This document shows positions 920 to 26,451 of a DNA stretch of 48,021 nt, one piece after another. The notes under the pieces are model-generated. The model was not told where the DNA came from. It worked only from the letters and a program-made list of their open reading frames with translations, and did not search any database. Source of the stretch: Actinomycetes bacterium (GTDB taxonomy: Bacteria > Actinomycetota > Thermoleophilia > Solirubrobacterales > Solirubrobacteraceae); NCBI GenBank assembly GCA_021820105.1, contig JAKAED010000011.1, positions 1-48,021 of the forward strand. The letters are read 5' to 3'. The position numbers were made by a program, and so were the translations under genes. Positions within the stretch are counted from its first letter, which is position 1, and every line of letters begins with the position of its first letter.

Positions 920-1696
920 ATGTATCAGCTTGCGCCCAACGTGGACGTCCTGTTCGCTGAAGCTGGAGCCACGCCCGCTGCGCGGGTGCGCGCTGCGGCC
1001 GCCGCGGGCTTTGACGCAGTCGAGATCTGGACGACGCTTGACAAGGACATCGACCAACTCGCCGATGCGCTCGCTGAGACGGGGGTGACGCTCACCGCGC
1101 TGCTTGCTGAACCGCGCACCAATTTCAGCTGGCCGGGTACCGACCTCGATCCGTATTACGAGGGTCTTGAGCGTGGAATCACCAACGCGCAGCGCCTTGG
1201 CTGTGAGCGGATCGTGCTCGGCTCTGGCCTTGGCTTTCCGGGGATGAAGCGAGCCCAGAATCTGGAGAGGCTGGTGGACGTGTTCTCCGCCACGGTGGCG
1301 CGGTTCGGTGGCTCTGGGGTACGCCTGCTGCTCGAGCCGGTGAACACCCGCATCGATCATCCGGGAGCACTGGCCGATCGGACCGCTGACGCGGTGGCGG
1401 TTGCACGCACCATCGACTCGCCCCACTTCGGGATCCTCTATGACCTCTACCACTCAATCGTGGAAGGGGAGGATCCGGCGAGTGAGCTGCTGGCCGCGGG
1501 CGATCTCGTCGGCTACGTCCACATCGCGGACGTTCCGGGGCGAGGCCAGCCGGGCAGCGGCGCGGTTGACTGGTCCGCTCAGCTCGCAGTCCTCCGCGCC
1601 GCCGGCTATACCGGCCCAATCGGGCTCGAGTACTTCCCGACCGTGCCGACCCTTGAGTCGGTGGCCCACATCCGGGCGGTCGCGCGCGACGTCTAG
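920..1696 (+). CDS. Hydroxypyruvate isomerase-like sugar isomerase
   Basis: This 258-residue AP-endonuclease-2 TIM-barrel protein matches the usual length and motif pattern of the hydroxypyruvate/2-oxo-tetronate isomerase (Hyi/OtnI) family. Visible are LLLEPVNTR with the metal-ligand candidate E139, LYDLYH with D175 and H178, [14 protein letters not shown] with H201, and GLEY with E237. GGAGGG sits just upstream of the ATG and supports this start. The expected reaction is aldose/ketose or 2-oxo acid interconversion in the cytoplasm. It is divergent from the isomerase at the left edge and convergent with xylose isomerase; its stop at 1694-1696 overlaps the end of xylA by 4 bp. The family is clear, the exact substrate is not. 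Confidence 0.85.
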
Positions 1697-2880
1697 CGCG
1701 CGCCGAGCAGATGCTCGGTCACGAGTTGCTGGAGCCGCACAAATCCGTAACCGTGGGCCCCGAAGTGAGCCCCTGCGTCGAAACTCTCCCACGAGCTTGC
1801 GTCGGCCAGAAGCTGTTCATGGCCCTCACCAGCTGAGAGTGTCGGCTCGCGCAGCTCGTCAACCTGGGCGTCGGACAACGCTCGCTGCACCTCGGGGTCA
1901 GCACGGAACGCGGCCGCGCGCTCCTTGAGCAGCAGATAGTTGCGCATGTTCGCGGCGGCCGAATCCCACACACCGGTCTCGTCCTCGGTGCGGGACGGCT
2001 TGTAGTCAAAGTGCCGCGGCCCCTCATACGCCCGGCCACCGCCCGCGCCGCCAAACTCCAGCAGATCCACCAGCGCAAAGGCCTGGTAGAGGTCAGCGTG
2101 GCCGAACACAAGATCCTGGTCGTACTTGATCCCGCGCTGCCCGTTGAGATCGATGTGGAAGAGCTTGCCGGCCTCCAGCGCCTGTTGGATCGCCGCAACG
2201 AAGTTCAGGCCGGTCATCTGCTCGTGTCCGAACTCCGGGTTGACGCCGAACAGCTCCGGCCGCTCCAGCGTCTGAATGAACGCCAGCGCGTGCCCCACGG
2301 TCGGCAACAGGATGTCGCCGCGCGGCTCGTTCGGTTTCGGCTCAATCGCGAACCGCATGCCGTAGCCCCTGTCGGTCACGTACTCCGCGAGCAGGTTCAC
2401 GGCCTCGCGGTAGCGTTCAATCGCCGCCCGGATGTCCTTGGCGTGGTCATACTCAGCCCCCTCGCGCCCGCCCCACATCACCAGCGTCTCCGCTCCCAGC
2501 TCCGCGGCTAGATCGATCTGCCTGATCACCTTGCGCAGCGCGAACCGCCTGACCGAGCGGTCATTGGAGGTGAAGCCTCCATCTTTGAAGACCGGCTGAG
2601 AGAAGAGGTTGGTGGTGACCATCGGTACGACCAGCCCGGTATCGGCCAGGGCCTGCTTGAGGCGATCGATCTGCTCGCGCCGCTCGCTCTCAGCGGCGCC
2701 GAACGCGAACAGATCGTCGTCATGAAATGTCAGGCCGTAGGCGCCAAGCTCCGCGAGCTTCTCAACCACGTGCACCACGTCCAGCGTCGGACGTGTTGGA
2801 CCGCCGAAGGGATCTGAACCCGTGTAGCCGACCGTCCACAGACCGAACGAGAACCTGTCCTGCGGTGTTGGTGTCAGCAT
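1693..2880 (-). CDS. xylA: Xylose isomerase
   Basis: The 395-residue protein is a full-length class I (actinobacterial) xylose/glucose isomerase. The catalytic His53-Asp56 pair lies in TFHDDD, Glu180 and Lys182 in EPKPNEPR, Glu216 and His219 in NPEFGHEQM, Asp244 in HIDLNGQ, Asp254 and Asp256 in YDQD, and Asp292 in HFDYKP. The numbering agrees with the classical Streptomyces enzyme to within a residue up to the metal-2 aspartates. AGGAGG precedes the ATG. It is the last gene of the leftward operon, 18 bp after the Gfo/Idh/MocA gene. No xylulokinase or xylose regulator is present, so I infer that it isomerises an aldose released by the glycoside-cleaving enzymes of this operon rather than serving a standard xylose pathway. 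That role is inference; the enzyme identity is strong. Confidence 0.93.
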
Positions 2881-2898
2881 CGCTGAACCTCCTGCGGC

Positions 2899-4014
2899 TC
2901 AGCCGCGATAGATGATCTGCTCGCGCCTGCCTGAGGCGTCCGAGCGAACAATGGCATCTGCAACCTCGCTGGCGCGGTACCCGTCCTCAAAGGTCGCACC
3001 ATATGGCCCAATCGGCCTATCGTTCACGATCGCGTCCAGCACGTGGTGGAGTTCGTGGACGAAGGTGTGCTCCCAGCCGATCACGTGTCCGTCTGGCCAC
3101 CAGAACGACCAGAACGGATCGTCCGCTTCTGTGACCAGCCGGCGAGTGAAGCCAGAGGTGCCAGTGGAGATCTGCAGTTCGTTGAGGCGCTCGAGGTTGA
3201 AGGCGAGCGATCCGCGACTTCCGTTGATCTCCCAGGTGAGCGCGTTCTTCCGGCCGGCCGCAAAGCGGGAGGCCTCGATCGTTCCAATCGCGCCACCTTC
3301 AAATCCGACCGTTGCTTCAAACGCATCGTCAACCGTCACCGGTTGATCCCCGCGCGCGTTCACGAAGGTGCGCAGGCGACCCGTGACCTCGCTGATCTCC
3401 CCAACCAGGTAACGCGCCTGATCGATCACATGGGTACCCAGATCTCCTAGCGCGCCCGAGCCTGCCTGGGCAGCGTCCGTGCGCCAGCTGGGAGGAGCGC
3501 TCGGATCAACCAGCCAATCCTGCAGGTAACTGCCGCGGAAGTGATGAATCTCGCCCAGCTCGCCTGCCTCGATCATTTGCCGCGCCAGGCGCACCGCCGG
3601 TACAAACCGATAGTTGAAAGCACACAGGTGCTTCACACCCGTGCCCGCCACCGCCTGCCAGAGCGCGTGCGCCTCATCCGCATTGCGCGCCAACGGCTTC
3701 TCGCAGATCACATGCTTACCGGCCTTGGCGGCTGCGATCGTCGGTTCGGAGTGCAGGCTGTTGGGACCCAGGTTGTCAAACAGCTGGATCTCGGGGTCAT
3801 CCACGATCGCCCGCCAGTCCGTTTCTGCCCGCTCGAAACCAAACCGCTGCGCCGCCTCCGTGACCGCCTCCCGGTTACGGCCACCGATCGCCACCAGCCG
3901 CACATCTGCGGGAGGTGGCCAGGTCATATACGCCAGCTTGCGCAGCCCGTTGGTATGCGCCCTGCCCATGAAGGCGTAGCCCAACATCCCGACGCCGATC
4001 GTCGGGCGGCTCAT
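2899..4014 (-). CDS. Gfo/Idh/MocA family NAD(P)-dependent oxidoreductase (candidate glycoside 3-dehydrogenase)
   Basis: This 371-residue protein has an N-terminal Rossmann fold with the dinucleotide motif [12 protein letters not shown] (9-20), the family signature CEKPLA with Lys106, and the catalytic-domain motif GDLGTHVID (190-198). Length and order are typical of Gfo/Idh/MocA dehydrogenases acting on sugars or cyclitols. The ATG overlaps the stop of the upstream isomerase as ATGA (4011-4014), so the two genes are translationally coupled. In the characterised puerarin system DgpA is an oxidoreductase of this family that makes the 3-oxo-glycoside substrate of the C-deglycosidase. The co-operonic DgpB/DgpC-like genes here suggest the same role. 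An inositol dehydrogenase is the main alternative. Confidence 0.88.
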
Positions 4015-5015
4015 CGCTCGCCCCCTGAGAAGGCGGCGTCAAACGCGCGACCGGAGGCTGCGAAGTTGATCTGCCGGGTGTAGCGAAGCGCGTCCTGCGC
4101 GCCCCATTCGCGGTCCATACCCGCGTCCTCCCACTCGACTGACAGCGGTCCGTCGTAGCCGATCCGGTTCAGGGTGCGGATCAGGGCTTCAAAGTCCACG
4201 TCGCCGTGGCCGGGGGAGACAAAGTCCCACCCGCGCTCATCCGCGCCAAAGTCAAGGTGCGATCCGAGAATCGAGCGGCGCCCGTCGAGCCGCCGCTTGG
4301 AGTCCTTGATGTGCACGTGGAAGATGCGGTCGGCAAACTCAGTCACGAACGGCGCTGGATCCAGGAACTGCGGGATGAAGTGGCTCGGGTCGAAGTTGAT
4401 TCCAAAGCTCTTCCGGCGTCCGATCGCAGCAAGTGCCTTACGAGTGGTCACAAAGTCATACGCGATCTCCGTGGGGTGGACCTCCAGCGCAAAGCGCACC
4501 CCCTCGGCCTCAAACACGTCGAGAATCGGGCCGAAGCGCTCGGCGAACTCCTCGTAGCCCCGCTCGACGGCACTGAAATCGTTGGGTGGAAAGGAGTACA
4601 GCTGCGCCCAGATCGGGGAGCCCGTGAAGCCTGTGACCACGCCGACGCCCAGCGCTCCGGCGGCCCGGGCGGTGTCCTTGAGACGGTCAGCCGCGCGCTG
4701 CCGTACACCCTCGGGATCGCCATCTCCCCACACCTCCGCCGGCAGCACGCTCCTGTGGCGAGCGTCGATCGGATCGCATACCGCCTGGCCGACCAGATGC
4801 GCGCCAATCGCGTGACAGCTCAGGCCGGCGCTCTCCAGAAGCCGGCGTCGCTGCGTGGCGTAATCCGAGTCGCTCAGCGCCTTGACAACGTCGAAGTGAT
4901 CGCCCCAGCAGGCCAACTCGAGCCCATCAAAGCCCCAGCCGCCTGCCTTCCTCACAAGCTCGTCCAGCGGCAGATCTGCCCACTGACCCGTGAACAGTGT
5001 GATCGGTCGCGCCAT
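4011..5015 (-). CDS. Sugar phosphate isomerase/epimerase
   Basis: This is a 334-residue AP-endonuclease-2 TIM-barrel protein. Metal and catalytic candidates are E178 and H180 in ALEVHPTE, D209 and H212 in NFDPSHF, H233, H235 and K237 in HVHIKD, and E294 in LSVEWED. Its barrel motifs match sugar isomerase/epimerases usually found next to Gfo/Idh/MocA dehydrogenases. It overlaps the downstream dehydrogenase by 4 bp and follows the alpha-subunit-like gene after 24 bp. In the context of 3-oxo-glycoside chemistry it may isomerise or epimerise the oxidised sugar, or cleave a 3-oxo-glycoside. Nothing in the sequence settles which. Confidence 0.85.
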
Positions 5016-5039
5016 CGGTCTCTCCCTTCTGCTCGCGCC

Positions 5040-6062
5040 TCAGCCCTTTTGAGCTGAGGCGCGGTCGTTGATGAGTCCGGCCATCAGGTCCTGCTGACCC
5101 CTGACCATGTCCCAGCCGCTCACGGCGTCCGTGTAGGCATGGCCCTCCCATTCGCTGGAGATCGAGCCGTTGTACCCGGCCTCCAACAGCACGTCGATGA
5201 TCGCCCCGTGATCGATTGACGGCTCGTTGCCCTGCTCGTCAAGGCCATAGAACTTGGCATGTACGTGGACGGTGCGGTCCATGATCTCCGCCCAGCGTCG
5301 CGGGTCCATCCGTCCGTGCATGGTGAGGATCATGTGGAGCTTCCCCATGTCTGCCGGTGAGGCGCCGAGTTTCGGGGCCTCCTGGGCAAAGGCGGCGAAC
5401 TTCTCCGGCATCGTGGTATCGCTGTTCCAGACCTCTGAGGCGAACTCCGTCAGCTCGGCGGGCATCCCCGACTCTCTGTGCGCCTGCAGCAGACTGGGGG
5501 GGATGCTGTGCATGGAGGAGCTGAAGTCCGGCACCCATCCGAGCCACGGGCTGTCGATCTTCTCAAAGATCTCACGCAGCTCCATGATGCCGGGACTGTC
5601 CACTGAATCGGGGCTGTGCAGCTCGACCCCGAACTTCATCTGGTGCCGCTCGCACACCTCGGCAAGCCTCCGCACAAAGGACTCCGTGCTGATGATCGCG
5701 GACTTGGCGATCGGGAACCCAAGGCGTTTGGCGGTGGCGATCTGGGCCTCCAGGTACTCAATGCCCTCCGGCTCGTCCATCCAGCGGTCACGATCGCGCG
5801 CAAGGTCAAGGTTGCAGCTCATCGCCGTCGCGATGAAGCCGTTGTCCTCGATCAGGCTGCGCACGTGCTTGACCGTCGGCTCGTCGAGGTGCGGCCATCC
5901 CCGGAGGCTCTGAAAGCCGACCATCTCGATGCCCGGACCCAGATCGAGTTCGGCGGCCTTTTTGACCATGCCCTCCAACGAGTAATCAGGCTCCCGCATC
6001 TCCAGGGTCAGGCTGAAGAGCGTGAGTCCCAGCTGGGGTAGGTTCGGTGCGGTGTAGGTCAT
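5040..6062 (-). CDS. C-glycoside deglycosidase alpha subunit-like protein (DgpC/CarC type), copy 1
   Basis: This 340-residue TIM-barrel protein carries E147 and H149 in GVELHSP, D179 in VPDFSSS, H266-x-H268-x-K270-F in HVHAKFYG, and E304 in ISSEWEGH. The same motif set (E-x-H, D, HxHAKF, SSE[WY]EG) recurs in the protein at 12481-13386. Both are coupled to a small DUF6379-like partner, as in the DgpB-DgpC and CarB-CarC complexes that split 3-oxo-C-glycosides with a divalent metal. Its ATG overlaps the stop of the beta gene (ATGA, 6059-6062), which fits obligatory co-assembly. The call rests on motifs plus gene pairing. A plain xylose-isomerase-like epimerase is the alternative. Cleavage of a C- rather than an O-glycosidic bond is inferred. 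Confidence 0.78.
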   Translation of the reverse strand: MTYTAPNLPQLGLTLFSLTLEMREPDYSLEGMVKKAAELDLGPGIEMVGFQSLRGWPHLDEPTVKHVRSLIEDNGFIATAMSCNLDLARDRDRWMDEPEGIEYLEAQIATAKRLGFPIAKSAIISTESFVRRLAEVCERHQMKFGVELHSPDSVDSPGIMELREIFEKIDSPWLGWVPDFSSSMHSIPPSLLQAHRESGMPAELTEFASEVWNSDTTMPEKFAAFAQEAPKLGASPADMGKLHMILTMHGRMDPRRWAEIMDRTVHVHAKFYGLDEQGNEPSIDHGAIIDVLLEAGYNGSISSEWEGHAYTDAVSGWDMVRGQQDLMAGLINDRASAQKG

Positions 6063-6484
6063 CGCTTTGCTCCGCTCTCCTGGTTGCAGATGAGGGTCTT
6101 GTCGGTGACGCTGGAGGCCAATAGCGGCGTGCGAGCGTCGGGTGGCCCGACGATGATGTAGGGGATGCTGAGACCAAGCCCGACCTGCACCCTGTGCTCC
6201 TCACCGGGTTCGCCGTCGCGCGGGATCTCGATCGTCACGGGATCAGTGATGTACCACCATGCGTCGGTCTGTGCCGGAAGCTCGCTGAATGCGTAGCTGC
6301 GGTCCGCGTAGCCGATCCCCAACTGTTCGCTCGACACCGGTTCGCCGTCGATCGCGATGTCCAGCACGGCGAGCGAGCTCAGCGGCAGCGAGCGGTACCA
6401 ATGGGAGCGGATCTGCAGCCTGAGCTTTCCATCCACGGCGGTCAGGCCGTCAGGCCTCACCACATCCTTGTCCAAAGGACCCAT
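6059..6484 (-). CDS. C-glycoside deglycosidase beta subunit-like protein (DUF6379; DgpB/CarB type), copy 1
   Basis: This 141-residue soluble protein has no signal peptide. It reads as the small beta subunit of C-deglycosidases: LQIRSHWYRSLPLS, then AIDGEPV, then SELPAQTDAWWYITDP and a C-terminal LGLSIPYI. The pattern R-x-x-x-Y-R...LS...DG...SEL...W...P is shared with the protein at 12080-12484. In characterised DgpBC/CarBC enzymes this subunit packs on the TIM-barrel alpha subunit and is needed for activity. Here it lies directly upstream of the alpha gene with a 4-bp ATGA overlap, and a TCTCTCC/GGAGAG-type ribosome site precedes the ATG. It has no known catalytic residues of its own. I recognise the family from memory; a profile search against DUF6379 would be decisive. 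Confidence 0.78.
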   Translation of the reverse strand: MGPLDKDVVRPDGLTAVDGKLRLQIRSHWYRSLPLSSLAVLDIAIDGEPVSSEQLGIGYADRSYAFSELPAQTDAWWYITDPVTIEIPRDGEPGEEHRVQVGLGLSIPYIIVGPPDARTPLLASSVTDKTLICNQESGAKR

Positions 6485-6496
6485 GTTTCTCTCCTG

Positions 6497-7318
6497 TCAG
6501 TATTCGAACGTCTCAGCGAACGTTCGGTAGGGGACCGGGGGACGGGGATTCAGTTCCTGCGCCCGGGTTGGGCTGTAGCGCTCAGCAAGCGAGCTTGCGG
6601 GAGCATCCGGCTTCGGCATGAACTTCGGACGCCCGTCCTCCCCGAAGTACATGAGATCGTTGTCAAATGAGGCCGCATCGAGTGAGGCAAAATCGATCCA
6701 GTTGCGGCTGTGGGTCGCGCGGGCAATCTCAAAGCAGCGGAAGTGCCAGATCTTCCAGTCGCCGTCCTGCTTGAGGAAATCCAGTCCGTACGCGCACCAC
6801 ACCCAGTGCGCCCACACCTTCTTGCCCATGACCTCGTGCGGTTCAAAGAAGAAGTCGGGCACGTTGCCGGCCACCTCCGGATCCGTGAGGCCCGACTCCA
6901 GCCCGTTCATGATCCACACGCCCTTGGCGGTCTGACCGTCCTGCGCGACCTCGATCACCGGCGTGGTCGTGTAGTGCAGAAGCAGCTTGCCGGCGGGTGC
7001 GGGGCGCCCGCGGTGGTACTCGGTAACGCTCTCCCATGTCGTATAGACGCCGAGGTTGCTGTATTGCGCATGGATGCCGGGAGTTCCCGGCTTCACCCAC
7101 AGATCGATGATCTCCTCGTCCCTAAATGCGTTGTGGAGGTACATGTAGGTGGAGAAGACGTTCTCCACGGCTCCTCGTGCCTCGGCACGAGCGGCACGCT
7201 GATTGGCCTGTGTCAAAGCGGCCTCCAGCGCGCTCAGCCGTTCCTCCAAGTTCGCGGTTGAGACGGGTCGATCTTCCAGCGTCTCAGGCGACGCCGATCC
7301 GTCGTGGGGCTCAGCCAT
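6497..7318 (-). CDS. SnoaL/NTF2-like domain protein, first gene of leftward operon
   Basis: This 273-residue cytoplasmic protein has a low-complexity N-terminus followed by a short helix rich in Leu, Glu and Ala (about 22-48, probably coiled coil), then one SnoaL/NTF2-type alpha+beta cone (about 50-210) with aromatic-rich strands such as WVWCAYGLDFLKQDG and KIWHFRCFEI. A proline-rich tail follows. The fold is used by ketosteroid isomerases, polyketide cyclases and dehydratases. GAGAGGAG precedes the ATG. It lies 12 bp before the beta-subunit gene, so it is in the same operon. Acting on the aglycone (often a phenolic or polyketide) or on the oxidised sugar are both plausible; neither can be shown from sequence. 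Confidence 0.8.
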   Translation of the reverse strand: MAEPHDGSASPETLEDRPVSTANLEERLSALEAALTQANQRAARAEARGAVENVFSTYMYLHNAFRDEEIIDLWVKPGTPGIHAQYSNLGVYTTWESVTEYHRGRPAPAGKLLLHYTTTPVIEVAQDGQTAKGVWIMNGLESGLTDPEVAGNVPDFFFEPHEVMGKKVWAHWVWCAYGLDFLKQDGDWKIWHFRCFEIARATHSRNWIDFASLDAASFDNDLMYFGEDGRPKFMPKPDAPASSLAERYSPTRAQELNPRPPVPYRTFAETFEY

Positions 7319-7449
7319 GTGGTGACTCTCCTCTCGAGCAATGATATACGCGTGAGAATATAGGATATCGGTAATGCGCTAGCGGATCGACTCTGGCGTG
7401 TGGATCGCGTCGGTTCTGTTACGGGATTGCTTTTCCTTGAGGAAATCGC
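7319..7449. promoter_or_regulatory. Upstream region of the leftward operon with A/T-rich GAATATAGGATATC site
   Basis: The 131 bp upstream of the SnoaL-like ATG (7318) hold the ribosome site GAGAGGAG and an A/T-rich island (7341-7369) that stands out in this GC-rich DNA. The island includes ATAT-AGG-ATAT symmetry at 7356-7369. Minus-strand -10 candidates TATATT and TATCAT occur in it, but I cannot pick a convincing -35. The site resembles those at 878-894 and 18218-18234, so it may be an operator for a shared regulator. Confidence 0.4.
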
Positions 7450-7494
7450 TTGACAGGGGCGGGGGCTCTGGATAATTTCCTGAACCGAGGTTCA
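7450..7494 (+). promoter_or_regulatory. Promoter with palindromic operator upstream of the sugar ABC transporter operon
   Basis: A consensus -35 TTGACA (7450-7455) is followed by GATAAT (7471-7476, 15-nt spacing) or TAATTT (7473-7478, 17-nt spacing). Directly downstream, over the expected start point, lies TGAACC-GA-GGTTCA (7481-7494), an inverted repeat with 6-bp arms. The placement is typical for a repressor operator; LacI-family sugar repressors often use this kind of sequence, but no LacI gene is in the window. Transcription from here would give a leader of about 230 nt before the binding-protein gene. Confidence 0.6.
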
Positions 7495-7495
7495 G

Positions 7496-7684
7496 ATTCG
7501 GACTGGCACGCGCCCGGTTCGAATCCGTAGGAGACATAGGTGGGTTGCCGGAGTCGGCAACCCGGTTCCGCTCGCGTACGGCGGGCGTTGGTTAAGGCTC
7601 GCGTGTGCGCGAGTCCGAAATTCGATGTCAAGTCTTCTCAGCTCTGTGAGCTGAGGTGCAGGTCAGAGGCCTCCGGTCACCGGA
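7496..7684 (+). ncRNA. Candidate structured leader RNA (five hairpins), no family recognised
   Basis: Five hairpins lie in a row in the untranslated leader. SL1 has arms 7496-7506 and 7514-7524 (11 bp including two G-U, 7-nt loop). SL2 has arms 7542-7550 and 7555-7563 (9 bp perfect, GAGT loop). SL3 has arms 7598-7603 and 7608-7613 (6 bp, TGTG loop). SL4 has arms 7637-7644 and 7648-7655 (8 bp perfect, TGT loop). SL5 has arms 7672-7676 and 7680-7684 (5 bp, TCA loop). The octamer CCCGGTTC occurs twice (7513-7520 and 7561-7568), so the 5' arm of SL1 could pair with either copy and switch structures. The ribosome site GAGAGGAG (about 7696-7703) lies just after SL5. A cis-acting riboregulator is inferred. 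Confidence 0.5.
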
Positions 7685-7711
7685 ACGCCAAATCAGAGAG
7701 GAGCAAGTGCA

Positions 7712-9004
7712 TTGTCTATGACGAGTTGGGTGCGTCCGGGACGTACTCTCGCGGTTGCGGCCGTAGCGTCTGCGTCCCTGGTGGTGGGGGTTGGCGCCAG
7801 CGCGGCGAAGAGCAAGAGTTCGAGCAACGTCCACGGCTCGATCACCGTCGACGCCCTGGCGTCATCGGGGAACAACCTGACGCCGCTGCAGATGGAGGCG
7901 AACGCCTTCATGCGCCGCTACAAGGGACTAACGGTCAAGGTTGAGGGAATTCCAGACCAGAACTACAACGCGGTGCTGCGCACCCAGTTGCAGGGTGGCG
8001 GTGGTCCTGACGTGTACCTGGGTTCCGCCGGAACTGGAGACAATGCGGCGATCCTGACATTTGCCAAGGCTCACCTGGCCGCAGATCTCTCATCGCAGCC
8101 GTGGGCCACCAAGATCGCACCGAACGCTTCCGGTTACTACATCGGCAAGAAGCTATATGGGTTGCCGATGGACTTCACCCCCTACGGTTACATCTACAAC
8201 GTGGCCGACTTCAAGAAGTGGGGCGTGAAGCCGCCGACGAACCTCTCGCAGGCTCTCAAGGTCTGCGCTGCGGCCAAGGCCCATGGTGGTATAGGTTTCG
8301 CCATCGCAGGGGCGGTTCCGGCCAACACCGGCGTCTACGCAATGGAGTTCGCGCAGGCCGACGTGTACGCCAAGCAGCCCAACTGGGACACGCTTCGACG
8401 TCACGGCAAGGTCAAGTTCGCCACGAGCAAGGGCTGGGCGCAGGCGCTCAATGACTTCGTGAAGATGAACAGCGCGGGCTGCTTTGAGCCCGGTGCCTCC
8501 GGGGCCGGGTTTGATCAGCTGACTCAGTTGTTGGGCTCACAGCAGGCTGGTGCTGTTGCTTCGCCCACCTTCTCGATCCCGACGGTCGAGTCCGCGGCTC
8601 ACCTGACGCTGAACGTGTTTGGCGGCTTTGGTAGCGCTGGCGAAGGTGGCGCTCTGGGCAACTTCAGCAATGCGATCGCGATGAACCCGCACGCAAAGAA
8701 CGCCCCGCTCGCCGAAAAGTTCCTCGCCTTCCTCGCGAGCGGTGAGGGGCAGCACATCTACGCGGCGGCCGATGGTGACCCCAGCTTCAACCAGATCAAG
8801 AAGGGCACGATTCCGGCCAAGCTCGGAATCTCCGGCATCGCCAAGACGCTGAAGCAGCAGACGCTGGCGGGCTCGATCAGCTGGCCGCCCGCTGACTGGC
8901 CGAATCAGGCGGTCTACGCTGCGCTCGGCACGGGAGTGCAGGGCCTGATGACCGGCCAGACGACGGTCTCGGCGGTCCTGAAGTCGATGGATGCGGCCTG
9001 GTAG
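7712..9004 (+). CDS. Sugar ABC transporter substrate-binding protein (CUT1 family)
   Basis: This 430-residue extracellular solute-binding protein has a basic N-terminus, a hydrophobic segment (about 11-30) and an Ala-Ser-Ala cleavage region, then a type 1 binding-protein body: the GPDVYLG motif, LPMDFTPYGYIYN, and the C-terminal PLAEKFLAFLASGEGQ seen in sugar-binding members. The start is TTG at 7712, chosen because GAGAGGAG lies 8 nt upstream; ATG at 7718 is an alternative. There is no lipobox cysteine, unlike most Gram-positive binding proteins, so membrane anchoring is unclear. It is the first gene of a rightward operon with both permeases and the ATPase. The ligand is probably a glycoside or oligosaccharide, inferred from the downstream deglycosidase-like pair. 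Confidence 0.9.
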   Translation: MSMTSWVRPGRTLAVAAVASASLVVGVGASAAKSKSSSNVHGSITVDALASSGNNLTPLQMEANAFMRRYKGLTVKVEGIPDQNYNAVLRTQLQGGGGPDVYLGSAGTGDNAAILTFAKAHLAADLSSQPWATKIAPNASGYYIGKKLYGLPMDFTPYGYIYNVADFKKWGVKPPTNLSQALKVCAAAKAHGGIGFAIAGAVPANTGVYAMEFAQADVYAKQPNWDTLRRHGKVKFATSKGWAQALNDFVKMNSAGCFEPGASGAGFDQLTQLLGSQQAGAVASPTFSIPTVESAAHLTLNVFGGFGSAGEGGALGNFSNAIAMNPHAKNAPLAEKFLAFLASGEGQHIYAAADGDPSFNQIKKGTIPAKLGISGIAKTLKQQTLAGSISWPPADWPNQAVYAALGTGVQGLMTGQTTVSAVLKSMDAAW

Positions 9005-9052
9005 CAGGACATTGGGTCCGCTGGGTGACGAACTCTCACGAGCCGCAGGAAA

Positions 9053-10021
9053 ATGGCGATAGTGGCAGGTGAGTCATCGGCGGGCGCTGTGCAGGAGCGC
9101 CGGCCCCCTGAGGGGGGTCGGCGCGACCGCCTGCGGCTTCGTCGTGGCGACGGACCGCGACGCGTGCCGTGGGTCTGGATTCTCCCCGGCCTGGTCGTGG
9201 CGGTTGCCATCCAGTTCTATCCGGTGCTGAGCGGGTCCTACTACGCATTCACGAGCTGGTCCGGGATCGGGCCGTCGCACTGGGTCGGACTGAAGAACTT
9301 CTCGGCGATCTTCAGCAACTCACAGGCGCTGGGGCCGCTGGTACACACGCTGGAGCTCGGCTTCGCGTTTGTGATCATCGCCAATGTGCTTGGTCTGGCG
9401 CTGGCGGTGGGGCTCGGCAACGCACTCAGGACCAGGAACTTCCTGCGAGCCCTGTTCTTCGCGCCGGTGGTGCTGACACCGCTGGCAACCTCCTACATCT
9501 GGGCCTACATCTTCCAGTACACAGGTCCGCTGAACAACGTTCTGAGCGCGCTTGGGCTCGGTTCGCTGCAGCAGGCGTGGCTGGGTTCGCCGACCTGGGC
9601 TCTCTGGACCATCCTCGTGGTCCTCGTCTGGCAGAACGCGGGCCTTTCCATGGTCATCTACCTGGCTGGTCTGCAGGCAATTCCGTCGGAGCTTGATGAG
9701 GCGGCGGCCGTCGACGGAGCGTCTGCCGCCTACCGCTTCAGGCGGGTGACGCTGCCGATGCTGATGCCGGCGATCCTCATCAACCTCACGCTGACGATGA
9801 TCTACGCGCTGCGTGTGTTCGACCAGATTCTGGCGCTCACCAACGGTGGACCGTTTGGTGCCTCGGACACCCTCGCCACGGCTGTCTGGAAACAGACCTT
9901 CGTCAACGACAACTACGGGTACGGGGCGGCGCTCGCGCTGCTGCTGACGGTCATGGTGCTCCTGATCGCCGCAGCTCAGTGGGGGCTGGTCGGCTGGTTC
10001 AACAGGCGAGCGTCGGCATGA
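9053..10021 (+). CDS. Sugar ABC transporter permease (MalF/UgpA-like)
   Basis: This 322-residue inner-membrane permease has a basic cytoplasmic N-terminus (1-38) followed by six predicted transmembrane segments. The EAA loop that docks with the ATPase is at about 216-235 (EAAAVDGASAAYRFRRVTLP). CUT1 permeases of the MalF/UgpA type have this architecture. Its stop overlaps the start of the second permease (ATGA, 10018-10021). It forms the import channel together with that protein. The N-terminal basic extension of about 38 residues is longer than the minimum for the family. Confidence 0.92.
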   Translation: MAIVAGESSAGAVQERRPPEGGRRDRLRLRRGDGPRRVPWVWILPGLVVAVAIQFYPVLSGSYYAFTSWSGIGPSHWVGLKNFSAIFSNSQALGPLVHTLELGFAFVIIANVLGLALAVGLGNALRTRNFLRALFFAPVVLTPLATSYIWAYIFQYTGPLNNVLSALGLGSLQQAWLGSPTWALWTILVVLVWQNAGLSMVIYLAGLQAIPSELDEAAAVDGASAAYRFRRVTLPMLMPAILINLTLTMIYALRVFDQILALTNGGPFGASDTLATAVWKQTFVNDNYGYGAALALLLTVMVLLIAAAQWGLVGWFNRRASA

Positions 10022-10860
10022 GCTACTACCGCTACACACCTCGGACTCTCCTGCGAGAGCTGGTCATGGTCCTGATCGGCCTGGCCTGGATGGTTCCGAT
10101 CTTCCTGCTGCTGAACGTCTCGATCAAGCCAGGAGGGTTCGAGGTCTACGGCTCGCCGTTTGCCGTCACCTCGAAGCCGACACTCTCCAACTACTCCACC
10201 GCCTGGCAGGGATCGGCGGTCGGGAGCCTCGGTCACGGCTTTGTCAACAGCGCGATCATCACCTCCATCAGCGTTGCACTGCTGATCGCGATCGGCTCGT
10301 TGACCGCCTATACGATCGCGCGCCGCGGCGGGCGTGCGAGCCGCCTGCTGACCGGCCTGTTCACCTTCGGGCTGGCCCTTCCTGTGCAGCTAGGCACCAT
10401 CCCGCTGTTTGCGGAGATGCGCAAGCTCGGTTTGGTAGGCACCTACAGCGGCATGGTCATCATCTACGTCGGCCTGTTGATGCCGCTCACGATCTTCCTG
10501 TACATGGGCTTCCTGCGATCGCTGCCACTGGACTATGAGCAGGCGGCCCGGGTCGACGGCGCCTCCCCGTTGCGGATCTTCTTTCGAGTGGTGTTCCCGT
10601 TGCTGCGGCCCGCCACCGGCACTGTCGCCATCCTCTGCGGCCTGATCATCTGGAATGACTTCTTCACGCCACTGATCTTCCTGGGGGGCAACAGCCACGC
10701 GACGCTGCCGGTGGTCATCTACGGCTTCGTGGCCGGCCTCGGCACGGAGTGGAACATCATCTTCGCGGCCGTGGCGATCAGTGTCGCGCCGCTCGTCATT
10801 TTCTTCATCTTCGCCCAACGCCAGCTGATCCGCGGCTACTCGGGCGGCATCAAGGCATAA
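10018..10860 (+). CDS. Sugar ABC transporter permease (MalG/UgpE-like)
   Basis: This 280-residue permease starts at MSYYRYTPRTLL; the ATG at 10018 overlaps the previous stop in an ATGA junction, which decides this start over an upstream in-frame one at 9979. It has six predicted transmembrane segments, and the EAA loop EQAARVDGASPLRIFFRVVF lies in the C-terminal half. A short N-terminal cytoplasmic stretch and the residues FAQRQLIRGYSGGIKA at the end are typical MalG/UgpE/GanQ features. It pairs with the 9053-10021 permease and the following ATPase. Confidence 0.92.
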   Translation: MSYYRYTPRTLLRELVMVLIGLAWMVPIFLLLNVSIKPGGFEVYGSPFAVTSKPTLSNYSTAWQGSAVGSLGHGFVNSAIITSISVALLIAIGSLTAYTIARRGGRASRLLTGLFTFGLALPVQLGTIPLFAEMRKLGLVGTYSGMVIIYVGLLMPLTIFLYMGFLRSLPLDYEQAARVDGASPLRIFFRVVFPLLRPATGTVAILCGLIIWNDFFTPLIFLGGNSHATLPVVIYGFVAGLGTEWNIIFAAVAISVAPLVIFFIFAQRQLIRGYSGGIKA

Positions 10861-10875
10861 GGAGAAGAGCATCAG

Positions 10876-12072
10876 ATGGCTTCGGTCACCTACAGGGCTG
10901 TTGACAAGATCTATGGAGATGGGCTCCATGCCGTCCGGCAGTTGAGCCTCGACATCCCTGATGGCGCCTTCACCGTGCTGGTCGGACCATCCGGGTGCGG
11001 TAAGACCACGGCGCTGCGCATGTGCGCGGGCCTCGAGGAGATCAGTGGGGGTGAACTGCTCGTCGGCGGTGAGGTGATCAACCGGCTCGATCCCGGCAAG
11101 CGTGACGTCGCCATGGTCTTTCAGAACTACGCGCTCTACCCGCACATGAGTGTGTTTGAGAACATCGCCTTCCCGCTGCGGGCGACTCATGTTCCCGCGG
11201 CGGAGATCAAGACCAGGGTCGAGCGGGTGATTGAGTTGCTCGACCTCCGCGAGCATGCCAAGCGCAAACCGGGGAATCTCTCGGGCGGACAGCGCCAGCG
11301 GGTGGCGATGGGCCGGGCCATCGTGCGTCAGCCAAAGGTGTTCCTGATGGACGAACCGCTCTCAAACCTCGATGCGAAGCTGCGCGTCCAGATGCGGGCC
11401 GAGATCTCACAGCTCCAGCACGAGCTGGGTGTCACCACGCTCTACGTCACGCACGACCAGACAGAGGCGATGACCATGGGCTCGCAGATGGCCGTGATGC
11501 GCAAGGGTGTGTTGCAGCAGGCGGGTGCGCCACAGGACATCTACAACGACCCGGCCAACCTGTTCGTCGCCGAGTTCGTCGGCTCGCCGGCAATGACCCT
11601 CTTCGCCGGCCACACCGAGCTTGACAACGGCAGGACCGTGCTGGTGCTTGGCCAGCAGCGCCTGGAGCTGGCTGAGGGAGCACTCGCCCGGCACCCGGCC
11701 GTTGGCCGCAACAACGGGCGTCGCGTCGTCGTCGGAATCCGTCCCGAGCACATGCAGCCACCTGGGGCCGCGGACTCAGGTCGGGCGAGACTCCGCGGCA
11801 AGGTCACGCTCGTGGAGCCACTGGGGCCACAGCAACTGGTTCACGTCGATGTCGAGGCTGAGCCTGTGGTCAGTGATGCGGTGTTGGAGATCGCCGGCGA
11901 CGGTGACGCGGAGGCGGGGCGAGCCAACCGCCGCGGTACGGCGGCGGTGCGCGCCGTTGCCGCCTTTGACAGTCGGGTGAACGTGCAGGCGGGCAGCGAG
12001 ATTGAGCTGGCGATCCCGACCGAGGAACTGCATTTCTTTGATCCGGATACCGGTATGGCATTGAGAGGGTGA
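10876..12072 (+). CDS. Sugar ABC transporter ATP-binding protein (MsmK/UgpC/MalK type)
   Basis: This 398-residue ATPase has all nucleotide-binding motifs: Walker A GPSGCGKT (37-44), Q-loop Gln83 in VFQNYALYPH, signature LSGGQ (135-139), Walker B VFLMDE (155-160) and switch His193 in VTHDQTEAM. The C-terminal third (about 240-398) is the OB/TOBE regulatory domain of CUT1 ATPases and ends with the usual HFFDPDTGMAL. It follows the second permease after 15 bp, and AAGGAGAAG provides the ribosome site. Such ATPases are often shared, but here it sits in the operon with its permeases and just 7 bp before a deglycosidase-like beta subunit. Confidence 0.95.
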   Translation: MASVTYRAVDKIYGDGLHAVRQLSLDIPDGAFTVLVGPSGCGKTTALRMCAGLEEISGGELLVGGEVINRLDPGKRDVAMVFQNYALYPHMSVFENIAFPLRATHVPAAEIKTRVERVIELLDLREHAKRKPGNLSGGQRQRVAMGRAIVRQPKVFLMDEPLSNLDAKLRVQMRAEISQLQHELGVTTLYVTHDQTEAMTMGSQMAVMRKGVLQQAGAPQDIYNDPANLFVAEFVGSPAMTLFAGHTELDNGRTVLVLGQQRLELAEGALARHPAVGRNNGRRVVVGIRPEHMQPPGAADSGRARLRGKVTLVEPLGPQQLVHVDVEAEPVVSDAVLEIAGDGDAEAGRANRRGTAAVRAVAAFDSRVNVQAGSEIELAIPTEELHFFDPDTGMALRG

Positions 12073-12079
12073 ACCGAAG

Positions 12080-12484
12080 GTGTTTGAGGAACCGATCATT
12101 CAGAGCCGCGGCTTTGTCAACGTGGGTGAGCCTGGCGCTCGCACGGGCTTTCAGCTGCAGATGCGGACGCCGTACTACCGGGGGGTCTGGCTGTCACTGG
12201 TGGAGGGCGCCGAGGTGACCGTTGACGGAGAGCGCCACACGCGCGACGAGATCAGTTGGACGATCCAGGGGCAGACCTGCGCGAACAGCGAGCTCGGTGA
12301 TCAGCACGACCGTCGTTGGCCCTATGAGGAGCCGGCCATCCTCACGGTCACTCGGCCGGGGGGTTTGGAGCCGGGCCGTCACGCGCTTGAGGTCGCGGTC
12401 AACTACCGGATGTCATACATCCCGATTGAGATGCAACCAACCACATCAATTGCCCGCCGCAGCCTGACCATGGTGCAGTCATGA
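12080..12484 (+). CDS. C-glycoside deglycosidase beta subunit-like protein (DUF6379; DgpB/CarB type), copy 2
   Basis: This 134-residue protein is homologous by eye to the 6059-6484 protein. Shared landmarks are QLQMRTPYYRGVWLS, VTVDGE, SELGDQHDRRWPYEEP and a C-terminal NYRMSYIPI; overall it is clearly divergent from copy 1. The GTG start at 12080 lies about 11 nt after AGAGGG, 7 bp behind the ATPase stop. Its stop overlaps the start of the alpha gene (ATGA, 12481-12484), repeating the coupling seen in copy 1. It is predicted to be the small structural partner of the 301-residue TIM-barrel protein. The family is recognised by pattern and context, not by search. Confidence 0.75.
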   Translation: MFEEPIIQSRGFVNVGEPGARTGFQLQMRTPYYRGVWLSLVEGAEVTVDGERHTRDEISWTIQGQTCANSELGDQHDRRWPYEEPAILTVTRPGGLEPGRHALEVAVNYRMSYIPIEMQPTTSIARRSLTMVQS

Positions 12485-13386
12485 CAGATCAGATCAAGCT
12501 TGGCGTCACGCTCTACAGCTACGGCGCCGACTACATGACAACCATGAGCCTCGAGGACTGTCTGGCCGACGTGGCGGACATGGGCGCCACCGGCGTGGAG
12601 ATCCTCTCCGAGACCCACATCGTGGGCTATCCGGCGCCATCGCGTGAGTGGCGGCAGCATTGGCATCGGCTGCTCGATCGCTACGGCCTGGAGGCCACCT
12701 GTTACAGCTGCTGGGTCGACTCACGCCGCTATCCGGGCAGAACGCTCACGGTTGAGGAGTCGGCGGCGCAGCTGCGTTGCGACCTGGAGCTTGCGGCCGA
12801 TCTCGGCTTCACGATCATCCGCCCGAAGCTTGGTGTCGTGACCTGGGATCTGGTCCCCGACCCGGTATGGCGGGAGGCCGTTGAGCGAGTGCTTCCCGAC
12901 GCGGCGCGGCTGGGAGTCACAATCGCGCCCGAGATTCACTGGCCCACACCGATCAGATCGCAGGTGGTGGACGCGTATCTGGATCTGATCCAGGCCACAG
13001 GCACCGATCACTTCGGCTTCGTGATCGATACCGGCGTCTTTCAGGATCGTGAGCGTGAGGATCGTCCCGGGCTGACCGAGGATCGGTTGGGGGGGAACAT
13101 CGAGCTGGGCGAAGCGCCCCCGCCACCCCCGCAGCTCATGGGCGTCGATGCGCGCGACATGTTGCCGATCATGGAGCACGTTGTTCACATCCATGCGAAG
13201 TTCTGGGAGATGAATGACGACGCAACGGATCCCCACATCCCTTGGGAGCCGATCATCGATGTGCTGGTGCAGTCCGGATTCAAGGGCTACCTCTCCAGCG
13301 AGTACGAGGGGGAGCGCCGCCTGTACCTGGCATCGGAACTGCTGCGACGCCAGCATCTGATGCTGCGCCGCCTGCTGGCGCGGTGA
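12481..13386 (+). CDS. C-glycoside deglycosidase alpha subunit-like protein (DgpC/CarC type), copy 2
   Basis: This 301-residue TIM-barrel protein has the same active-site series as the copy at 5040-6062: E151 and H153 in IAPEIHWP, D183 in FVIDTGVF, H236-x-H238-x-K240-F in HIHAKFWE, and E274 in LSSEYEGE. A proline run lies at about 213-217, in a loop not seen in copy 1. It is shorter by 39 residues and diverged, so a different glycoside substrate or stereochemistry is likely. It is translationally coupled to its beta partner and encoded at the end of the ABC transporter operon, which ties uptake directly to cleavage. Alternative: a generic sugar isomerase. Confidence 0.76.
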   Translation: MTDQIKLGVTLYSYGADYMTTMSLEDCLADVADMGATGVEILSETHIVGYPAPSREWRQHWHRLLDRYGLEATCYSCWVDSRRYPGRTLTVEESAAQLRCDLELAADLGFTIIRPKLGVVTWDLVPDPVWREAVERVLPDAARLGVTIAPEIHWPTPIRSQVVDAYLDLIQATGTDHFGFVIDTGVFQDREREDRPGLTEDRLGGNIELGEAPPPPPQLMGVDARDMLPIMEHVVHIHAKFWEMNDDATDPHIPWEPIIDVLVQSGFKGYLSSEYEGERRLYLASELLRRQHLMLRRLLAR

Positions 13387-14708: not shown

Positions 14709-15080
14709 TCAGAACATCGGATGGTCGTGCGCCGGATCTGCGGGCACCGTCTGCAGGACGTCCCAGTGCTCAACGATCCGTCCACCGTCAAAGCGGTAGA
14801 TGTCGGCCACGGCGGCATCGGGCATGCCGGGTCTGATGGCGCGCACGTGCACCATCGCCAGATCACCATCAACCAGGATGCGCTGGATTTCAAAGCGGGC
14901 GTCCGGGGAGTCGTCGAACTTGGGAGTCAGCGCCGCTATCGCTGCCTCCCGGCCATCCAGGATGTTCGGGTTGTGCTGTCGGTAGGTCTCGCCCACCAGG
15001 AGGTCGAACGCCGCTCGGACGCGCTTGCGGGTGTAGAAGAGCTCGCAGAATTGTTCAAACGCCTCTCTGTGATCTGCCAC
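14709..15080 (-). CDS. SnoaL-like polyketide cyclase/ester cyclase family protein
   Basis: This small NTF2-fold protein has the SnoaL-like ester-cyclase pattern YRQHNPN...DGREA...VHVRA...ADIYRFDGGRIVEHWDV. The GTG at 15080 is the preferred start (123 residues) because AGGAG lies 6 nt upstream of it; the ATG at 15104 (131 residues) has no ribosome site. The conserved DIYRF and EHWDV strands form the cone pocket. It is divergent from an MFS exporter gene by about 50 bp. It may act on the aglycone or another small metabolite, but no substrate can be read from the sequence. Confidence 0.82.
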   Translation of the reverse strand: MADHREAFEQFCELFYTRKRVRAAFDLLVGETYRQHNPNILDGREAAIAALTPKFDDSPDARFEIQRILVDGDLAMVHVRAIRPGMPDAAVADIYRFDGGRIVEHWDVLQTVPADPAHDHPMF

Positions 15081-15128
15081 GTGCCGCTCCTGTGATGTGA
15101 GCATGAAAGAATCGCGTCGATTGCGCCC

Positions 15129-26322: not shown

Positions 26323-26358
26323 CCGACACAGCCCGGCACCCGGCCACCAATCCCAAAA

Positions 26359-26447
26359 CGGAGAGGAGGGGATTCGAACCCCTGATGGAGATTTCTCCCC
26401 ATACTCGCTTAGCAGGCGAGTGCCTTCAGCCACTCGGCCACCTCTCC
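26359..26447 (-). tRNA. tRNA-Ser(GCU)
   Basis: On the minus strand the acceptor arms GGAGAGG and CCTCTCC pair perfectly. The D arm contains GGCCGAGTGGCTGAAGGC. The anticodon arm is CTCGC-CTGCTAA-GCGAG with anticodon GCT. There is a long class II variable arm (GGGGAGAAATCTCC), and the T arm is AGGGG-TTCGAAT-CCCCT. The discriminator is G, as in serine tRNAs. CCA is not encoded. It reads AGC/AGU codons. Confidence 0.98.
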
Positions 26448-26451
26448 GAGA

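Follow-up and report, generated by a model that had tools for sequence, protein, structure and literature searches.

Glycosides can be degraded without hydrolysis by a route of oxidation, elimination, hydration and reduction, known from the accessible parts of PMC7676230 and PMC10628242. C-glycoside deglycosidases (CGDs), in which a TIM-barrel alpha subunit is paired with a small beta subunit, have so far been characterized in Firmicutes of the gut, in Actinomycetes of soil and in Deinococcus. According to the accessible part of PMC8563793, AgCGD2 of Arthrobacter globiformis is active as alpha plus beta; E147, D179, H269, K271 and E305 serve as its metal ligands, and His149 is the base, with Glu307 as partner. 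Here we describe a CGD locus in a stretch of 48,021 nucleotides from a Solirubrobacteraceae bacterium (assembly GCA_021820105.1, contig JAKAED010000011.1, positions 1 to 48,021 of the forward strand; hereafter the window, to whose positions all coordinates refer), which extends the system to a lineage of the Thermoleophilia whose sampled relatives lack the beta-subunit family CGDB.

The CGD unit comprises 13 genes and spans 920-13386, and is therefore larger than the interval 2899-13386 delimited in an earlier reading of the sequence (the original prediction). Its identification as a real CGD locus is well supported at the level of sequence by homology, catalytic residues, subunit pairing, natural fusions and recurrent gene content. 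We estimate a probability of roughly 0.87 that the locus serves to break down glycosides, most probably those of aromatic compounds from plants, by the non-hydrolytic route outlined above.

Two pairs of CGD subunits

The original prediction had proposed two pairs, each made of a small protein and a TIM barrel, and all four open reading frames (ORFs) were confirmed at their coordinates: beta1 (6059-6484, 141 aa) and alpha1 (5040-6062, 340 aa) on the minus strand, and beta2 (12080-12484, 134 aa) and alpha2 (12481-13386, 301 aa) on the plus strand. In both pairs the genes overlap by ATGA (6059-6062 and 12481-12484). The reported common motifs are also present, namely R-x-x-x-Y-R, LS, DG and SEL in the small proteins, and E-x-H, D, HxHAKF and SSE[WY]EG in the barrels.

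Database searches bore out the CGD-like nature of both pairs. The small proteins match PF19906 above its cut-off of 27.6 bits (beta1, 50.6 bits, E 2e-13; beta2, 127.3 bits, E 3e-37); this Pfam family bears the name CGDB, and the PDB records name the matching chains DUF6379, in agreement with the family membership that had been predicted. In the PDB, beta1 matches 8qvc_B (E 1.1e-14) and beta2 the N-terminal part of 8qrz (E 2e-26). Pfam assigned PF01261 to five barrels of the locus, including alpha1 (E 9.7e-12), and a search of NCBIfam at E<=0.001 gave no match for any of the four subunits. The PDB chain closest to alpha1 is AgCGD2 (7dnm, E 1.9e-65), followed by 8qvc, 9m3a and 7bvr, while alpha2 is closest to 8qrz (E 1.7e-86), followed by DfgA (7bvs, E 2.1e-62). 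By their Foldseek titles, 8qrz and 8un2 are the CGD of Microbacterium testaceum, and 8qvc and 8umc that of Deinococcus aerius. For an AlphaFold2 model of alpha2 (pLDDT 84.8), the first 16 Foldseek rows are exclusively CGD chains.

The structure 8qrz is a single chain of 435 residues, of which residues 3-133 match beta2 and residues 143-430 match alpha2. Since the two subunits match separate parts of one chain, 8qrz represents a natural beta-alpha fusion.

Related loci were collected with four AgCGD2-like alpha subunits as query, which favours relatives of alpha1, with the top 80 of 164 being retained. The 84 loci compared here come from two scans (77 and 7), and some of them overlap (for example L013/L016-L019, L023/L045, L047/L048, L058/L072, L034/L087). 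Among 208 frames with an alpha match in the fetched loci, 36 are single stop-to-stop beta-alpha fusions, a count to which overlapping loci contribute (L023 and L045 hold the same gene). A same-strand alpha lies within 1.5 kb of 125 of the 126 betas located away from locus ends, a figure biased upward by the selection of loci through alpha or beta. Both pairs of the window are predicted to form alpha/beta complexes, for which the ATGA overlaps and the fusions are indirect indications.

In a FastTree phylogeny of 170 alphas, alpha2, DfgA and 8qrz belong to one clade of 19 members (support 0.988); the grouping of alpha2 with 8qrz apart from DfgA has a weak support of 0.326. Alpha1 belongs to a 12-member clade (0.997) formed by loci of Gaiellaceae, Geodermatophilus, Blastococcus, Goekera, Microbispora, Actinomadura and Actinoallomurus.

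Active site and substrate class

Alpha1 and alpha2 retain all seven metal and catalytic positions of AgCGD2, as do all eight alphas of the genome. Across the 170 aligned alphas these positions are conserved in 170 (E147), 166 (H149), 170 (D179), 148 (H269), 170 (K271), 167 (E305) and 164 (E307) sequences. Gln stands in place of the metal ligand His269 in 22 of them, 8qrz included, and metal use may differ there.

It is conceivable, though we hold it to be the lesser possibility, that the pairs serve mainly aryl or alkyl O-glycosides through the same 3-oxidation and elimination, with C-glycoside cleavage absent or a side activity. PuCGE cleaves both O- and C-glucosides in their 3-keto form, and O-glycosides are the commoner ones in plants (accessible part of PMC10628242); in addition, the Gfo/Idh/MocA oxidoreductase of the locus is similar to levoglucosan dehydrogenase, an enzyme acting on a sugar with a C-O bond at its anomeric carbon. 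The beta subunits argue against such a preference. Replacement of Tyr39beta of PuCGE by Phe lowered C-glycoside activity about 12,000-fold and O-glycoside activity merely 2.4-fold (PMC10628242, same part), and in the alignment this column is occupied by Tyr30 of beta1, Tyr33 of beta2 and a Tyr in all seven betas of the genome.

Tyr303 of the PuCGE alpha subunit was also considered as a marker of C-glycoside cleavage, and was rejected as having no diagnostic use, since it is absent in AgCGD2, DfgA, 8qvc, 8qrz and 9m3a. The paralogues of this genome provide a natural panel for the question of why some CGD-type lyases act on C-glycosides and others on O-glycosides.

Organization of the locus and the proposed pathway

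Judging by gene spacing, we infer that the left genes (minus strand) and the right genes (plus strand) each form one operon, the two being divergent. The left operon is transcribed (minus strand) in the order SnoaL_4 gene (7318-6497), beta1 (6484-6059), alpha1 (6062-5040), sis2 (5015-4011), gfo (4014-2899) and xylA (2880-1693), with a third ATGA overlap between sis2 and gfo. The right operon (plus strand) encodes a solute-binding protein (7712-9004), two permeases and an ATPase (to 12072), followed by beta2 (12080-12484) and alpha2 (12481-13386). A further gene, sisA (920-1696, plus strand), converges on xylA.

The reaction steps, the substrate, its import and the contribution of XylA can be put together from these homologies as follows. 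A glycoside would be imported by the ABC transporter, and the C3 hydroxyl of its sugar would be oxidized by the Gfo/Idh protein or by another 3-oxidase of the cell. In either CGD pair, a metal-dependent barrel would be closed by the small beta subunit gripping the aglycone; the catalytic His would take the C2 proton, and the aglycone would be expelled by beta-elimination, leaving 2-hydroxy-3-keto-glucal. Addition of water by Sis2 would yield 3-keto-glucose, whose reduction to glucose would fall to the Gfo protein or to a reductase encoded elsewhere. XylA could then turn glucose into fructose or, if the substrate were a xyloside, xylose into xylulose.

The hydration step, where the original prediction had spoken of isomerization, is suggested by the TIM barrel encoded by sis2 (4011-5015, minus strand). 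This protein is a homologue of 8ro4 (E 1.1e-38, residues 8-328), named 2-hydroxy-3-keto-glucal hydratase, and is thus a putative hydratase and not obviously an isomerase. It matches 2zds (SCO6571) with E 5.4e-134; that entry is labelled 'putative DNA-binding protein' despite its strong homology to the hydratase-like Sis2. Matches to Sis2 at E<=1e-8 occur in 24 of the 84 CGD loci. A single locus here joins homologues of a CGD lyase and of a separately solved 3-keto-glucal hydratase.

The Gfo/Idh/MocA oxidoreductase (2899-4014, minus strand; PF22725, PF02894 and PF01408) probably oxidizes the glycoside at C3 and/or reduces the 3-keto sugar. Such an enzyme had been predicted and is present, but it is not DgpA-like: DgpA (7xr9) is matched with just E 1e-20, compared with 2e-91 for 4h3v and 6.9e-91 for 6a3f. 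We take 6a3f to be levoglucosan 3-dehydrogenase, which fits the top-scoring NCBIfam model for the oxidoreductase, NF052479 (levoglucosan dehydrogenase).

This resemblance allows a reading of the locus as an Lgd-type pathway for levoglucosan or another anhydrosugar, with the pairs as 3-keto-anhydrosugar eliminases, and the accessible part of PMC7676230 describes the same pathway logic. We consider it improbable. With 350.7 bits, the Gfo protein stays below the NF052479 cut-off of 650, and LgdB1, a 30-kDa protein (PMC7676230) with PF01261 (accessible part of PMC10066097), shows activity when purified on its own, which sets it apart from the CGDA/CGDB pair.

Returning to glycoside catabolism by the CGD pairs, the original prediction of a complete locus stands as far as an importer, a Gfo oxidoreductase and CGD pairs are concerned; completeness itself is unproven, and the one Gfo gene of the locus would have to provide both the oxidation and the reduction at the end, unless another gene takes part. 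The predicted position of a sugar ABC transporter between the two pairs (7712-12072, plus strand) was confirmed. Its solute-binding protein (7712-9004) was recognized by Pfam (PF13416 and PF01547). The remaining components are putative, being named from their ORF sequences and from their recurrence at E<=1e-8 in the compared CGD loci: permease 1 (9053-10021) in 44 of 84, permease 2 (9979-10860, a later start near 10009 being possible) in 44, and the ATPase (10876-12072) in 19.

The two genes at the left end differ in their distribution. SisA (920-1696) is a hydroxypyruvate-isomerase-like TIM barrel (PF01261, E 8e-40; TIGR03234, 138 bits, below the cut-off of 353) with a match at E<=1e-8 in 40 of the 84 loci. 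XylA (1693-2880, minus strand), a xylose/glucose isomerase, passes the TIGR02631 equivalog cut-off (653 versus 447 bits). It is the single match in its own genome and is 83-87% identical to proteins of 4 out of 22 same-genus genomes searched; in the three of these whose surroundings were read, no CGD-locus genes lie beside xylA, apart from weak Gfo and ATPase similarity. The gene looks like a native one that closes the left operon here.

A SnoaL-fold protein associated with CGD loci

The left operon starts with a gene beyond the account given in the original prediction, which encodes a SnoaL_4/NTF2-fold protein (6497-7318, minus strand; PF13577, E 3e-17). At E<=1e-20 this protein was found in 2 of 396 genomes of the phylum, both CGDB-positive, and in none of the 391 genomes without a CGDB match (E<=0.001); the genome draws used for the two proteins were taken as identical, since they list the same genomes. 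Among 35 CGD genomes (derived from 36 of the 77 loci and used for both the SnoaL and the CGDB counts), 13 encode it at 57-69% identity, within 4 kb of a CGD gene in 12 cases and about 8 kb away in the thirteenth.

Plasmids show a similar association. Only six of 72,556 plasmid records contain a match, and the five with at least 57% identity, from Novosphingobium (4) and Arthrobacter (1), all fall within the 20 plasmids that have a match to alpha1; in four of the five, the SnoaL gene lies no more than 0.5 kb from a CGD gene. On pNL2 of N. aromaticivorans, SARO_RS18725 (SnoaL) is divergent from SARO_RS18730 (barrel) and SARO_RS18735 (DUF6379). In eight loci (L058, L080, L084, L088, L091, L097, L098 and L112) the gene is flanked on one side by an alpha that shares 80-95% identity with AgCGD2 and on the other by the following beta, and in SnoaL-bearing loci it is usually better conserved than alpha or beta.

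These distributions indicate, at the level of sequence, that the protein is tied to CGD loci as a conserved putative helper, present beside CGD genes in Actinomycetota and Pseudomonadota, including N. aromaticivorans. Its job is described nowhere that we found: a search of the literature library used found no paper joining SnoaL with C-glycosides, none of the 12 papers listed out of 153 in a second search names a SnoaL-like protein, and the terms 'SnoaL' and 'nuclear transport factor' are absent from the word-searched main text, as far as accessible and excluding supplements, of five CGD papers, PMC12724307, PMC10646112 and PMC10807413 among them. The genome of A. globiformis gave no SnoaL match at E<=1e-20, yet AgCGD2 is active with its two subunits, so that the protein is not needed for that reaction.

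A structural model was built from 13 selected sequences, with the fragments from L080 (168 aa) and L058 (144 aa) excluded; its pLDDT is 76.8, and that of the other four models 59.5-65.9. Foldseek rows 1-7 are all LdpA, a gamma-formaldehyde lyase (8abt-8abw, E 2.6e-11 to 2.4e-10, 23-26% identity, TM-score by query 0.48-0.53), for which dehydration to a quinone methide and loss of formaldehyde have been proposed (accessible part of PMC12997858). We put forward, as a speculation with rather low odds, that the SnoaL protein is an undescribed, dedicated component of the CGD pathway that acts like LdpA. It might use the ortho or para hydroxyl of an aryl-C-glycoside to expel the ring oxygen at C1 and open the sugar via a quinone methide, so that other anomers or ring forms would be exchanged for the beta-pyranoside accepted by the oxidase and the CGD, or it might provide a second way of cutting the bond between aryl group and sugar.

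Several related genes were seen in the course of this analysis. The SnoaL gene appears broken in two CGD operons of the Arthrobacter group, by an internal stop in L080 (possibly an assembly error, the contig coverage being about 2) and a split frame in L058. A plasmid of Streptomyces sp. NBC_01450 (L116) carries four tandem distant relatives (26-34% identity), with no CGD match within the 16.6 kb read. In the window itself, a second small protein, with a SnoaL_2 domain (131 aa; 14709-15104), is encoded close to the right edge of the CGD region and is unmatched at E<=1e-15 in the corresponding stretch of the congener G011.

CGD copies in the genome and origin of the locus

The genome contains seven PF19906 matches: two in the window, three on contig C203, and one each on C120 and C51. 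An alpha accompanies each of the seven betas, and an eighth alpha on C51 (L011, 7988-8899) has no visible beta, so that beta subunits number seven and alpha subunits eight in one assembly, with several subfamilies represented. The five additional pairs lie in loci L008, L009, L010 and L011; in the L008 pair the alpha precedes the beta, and its nearest relative is the D. aerius CGD (50%). Most of these paralogues are not recent copies, because their identities are low (21-39% to alpha1; 71% for the closest pair in the genome, in L009 and L011). Seven CGDB copies do not constitute a record: the number per genome ranges from 1 to 13 among the 35 CGD genomes, one of which exceeds seven.

Further candidate genes lie near these additional pairs. 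A GMC oxidoreductase (L010, 3447-5132; 561 aa) with a weak pyranose-oxidase match, encoded about 2.4 kb from the CGD pair, is a candidate for an FAD-dependent enzyme of CarA/PurA type that oxidizes glycosides at C3. On C203 (L008, 8652-11713; L009, 546-5341), molybdenum hydroxylase subunits and genes resembling those for 3-hydroxyacyl-CoA dehydrogenase and beta-keto acid cleavage are found between CGD pairs and form a possible aglycone-degradation island; the best model of the hydroxylase FAD subunit is 4-hydroxybenzoyl-CoA reductase, below cut-off.

CGDB was found in none of 60 relatives, 27 of them of the same genus, and above cut-off in only 3 of the 396 phylum genomes, the present one included. 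Because it is missing from all 60 relatives, gain in this lineage is likelier than loss in the others. When window genes were compared with the closed congener G011 (55 kb read), 19 of the 26 tested to the right of 15.1 kb were found there in the same order, in contrast to 0 of the 15 tested between 0.9 and 15.1 kb, and the CGD genes are not at the matching place. Native sequence also makes up the window's far end, where sdhA is 85-90% identical in six congeners. The sole tRNA gene of the window, tRNA-Ser (gct; 26358-26448), lies away from the edge of the CGD region.

Such a pattern could also arise if the locus had entered the assembly from another organism by faulty binning or assembly, and the 264 contigs of the assembly, the absence of CGDB from the relatives, and single genes beside the pairs on C203 and C51 that have no close match in congeners (best 47%; 44% in a genome of the same order) are what this explanation can draw on. 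For the window we reject mis-binning as very improbable, given the synteny with G011 and the identity of xylA in four congeners, which place native-looking genes on both sides of the CGD genes, and given the tetranucleotide profile. CGD stretches and contigs correlate with the native part at 0.92-0.97 (0.93 between the two native halves), whereas loci from three further genomes with CGDs give values of 0.53-0.73, although congener G011 also reaches 0.93.

Assessment of the glycoside reading

The least credible explanation, that the barrels are ordinary sugar isomerases or epimerases beside an unrelated small protein, can appeal to PF01261, which isomerases and CGD alphas have in common, and is rejected because in the Foldseek ranking of the alpha2 model non-CGD chains come after every CGD chain listed (4ovx at E 1e-12, versus 2e-18 to 2e-35), the beta is a PF19906 protein, and beta-alpha fusions occur naturally.

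Several observations weigh against the assignment of the locus to a CGD-based glycoside pathway, or limit its precision. (i) 'C-glycoside' is a family name and not a substrate assignment, because PuCGE cleaves O-glycosides as well (PMC10628242, accessible part). (ii) The 12-member clade of alpha1, although well supported, contains no PDB chain or, as far as seen, assayed member; AgCGD2 falls in a separate clade of eight members (1.0), and the node that unites the two takes in 115 of the 170 sequences (0.893). The original prediction of two cleavage enzymes in divergent operons holds for their different subfamilies and orientation, while a difference in specificity is presumed from subfamily. 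(iii) The Gfo protein is remote from DgpA, and falls below the cut-off of its best NCBIfam model. (iv) Among the 13 locus genes there is neither a second Gfo gene that could encode a separate 3-keto-glucose reductase (the remaining genome was not searched for one) nor a visible FAD 3-oxidase of CarA/PurA type. (v) XylA is not part of the recurrent CGD module, because only 1 of the 84 loci has a XylA-like match (27%). (vi) The SnoaL protein was not found in 22 of the 35 CGD genomes, genome G266 is CGDB-positive without it, and plasmid PP1Y has a SnoaL match with no CGD gene inside 8 kb, its best CGD match being about 38 kb off. (vii) Congeners offer no close match to the genes flanking the copies on C51 and C203, so that the copies on C51, C203 and C120 are tied to the genome by base composition alone, which a congener would also satisfy.

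Comparison with known systems

The gene content of the locus matches that of Arthrobacter CGD loci, and the window locus joins an already known kind of system. Its nearest named relative is the locus of Gaiellaceae bacterium KatS3mg012 (L019), which shares alpha1 (63%), beta1 (50%), the SnoaL protein (68%), alpha2 (57%), beta2 (58%) and the transporter; Gaiellaceae likewise belong to Thermoleophilia. In Arthrobacter sp. StoSoilB13 (L112) the same kinds of genes occur, namely those for beta2-alpha2, for beta-alpha pairs, for a binding protein and for permeases, together with sisA, snoaL, gfo and sis2; the order there is alpha-snoaL-beta-gfo-sis2, and the alpha beside snoaL is 95% identical to AgCGD2.

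Among the described systems, the SnoaL protein resembles LdpA in the fold of its model, and differs from it by the modest TM-score and by its gene neighbours. DgpABC of strain PUE, which acts on puerarin, has the same beta/alpha architecture and the same logic of an oxidoreductase plus a CGD, but alpha1 and alpha2 are just 21% and 27% identical to DgpC, and the oxidoreductases differ in type. DfgA-DfgB (EuCGD; 7bvs, 7dre, 7exb) is homologous to alpha2/beta2 (E 2e-62 and 5e-24), shares the 19-member clade and keeps the metal-binding His; it differs in its identity of about 38%, its origin from a gut Firmicute and its heterooctameric assembly (accessible part of PMC8563793). The M. testaceum CGD (8qrz, 8un2) is 48% identical to alpha2 and its beta part is homologous to beta2, but it is one fused chain with Gln where alpha2 has the metal-ligand His.

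A further close counterpart is the AgCGD1/AgCGD2 locus of A. globiformis NBRC 12137 (CarBC family; 7dnm, 7dnn), whose AgCGD2 is the nearest solved structure to alpha1 (36.5% identity over 323 aa). The locus that carries the AgCGD2 gene itself (L073; 148/148 residues, cut by the locus end) contains a fused beta-alpha gene, a binding protein, two permeases and a sisA homologue, and loci whose alpha shares 80-95% identity with AgCGD2 (L080, L098 and L112) continue with alpha-snoaL-beta-gfo-sis2. Compared with the AgCGD locus, that of the window comes from Thermoleophilia, has XylA added and both pairs unfused, and its alpha1 lies outside AgCGD2's own clade.

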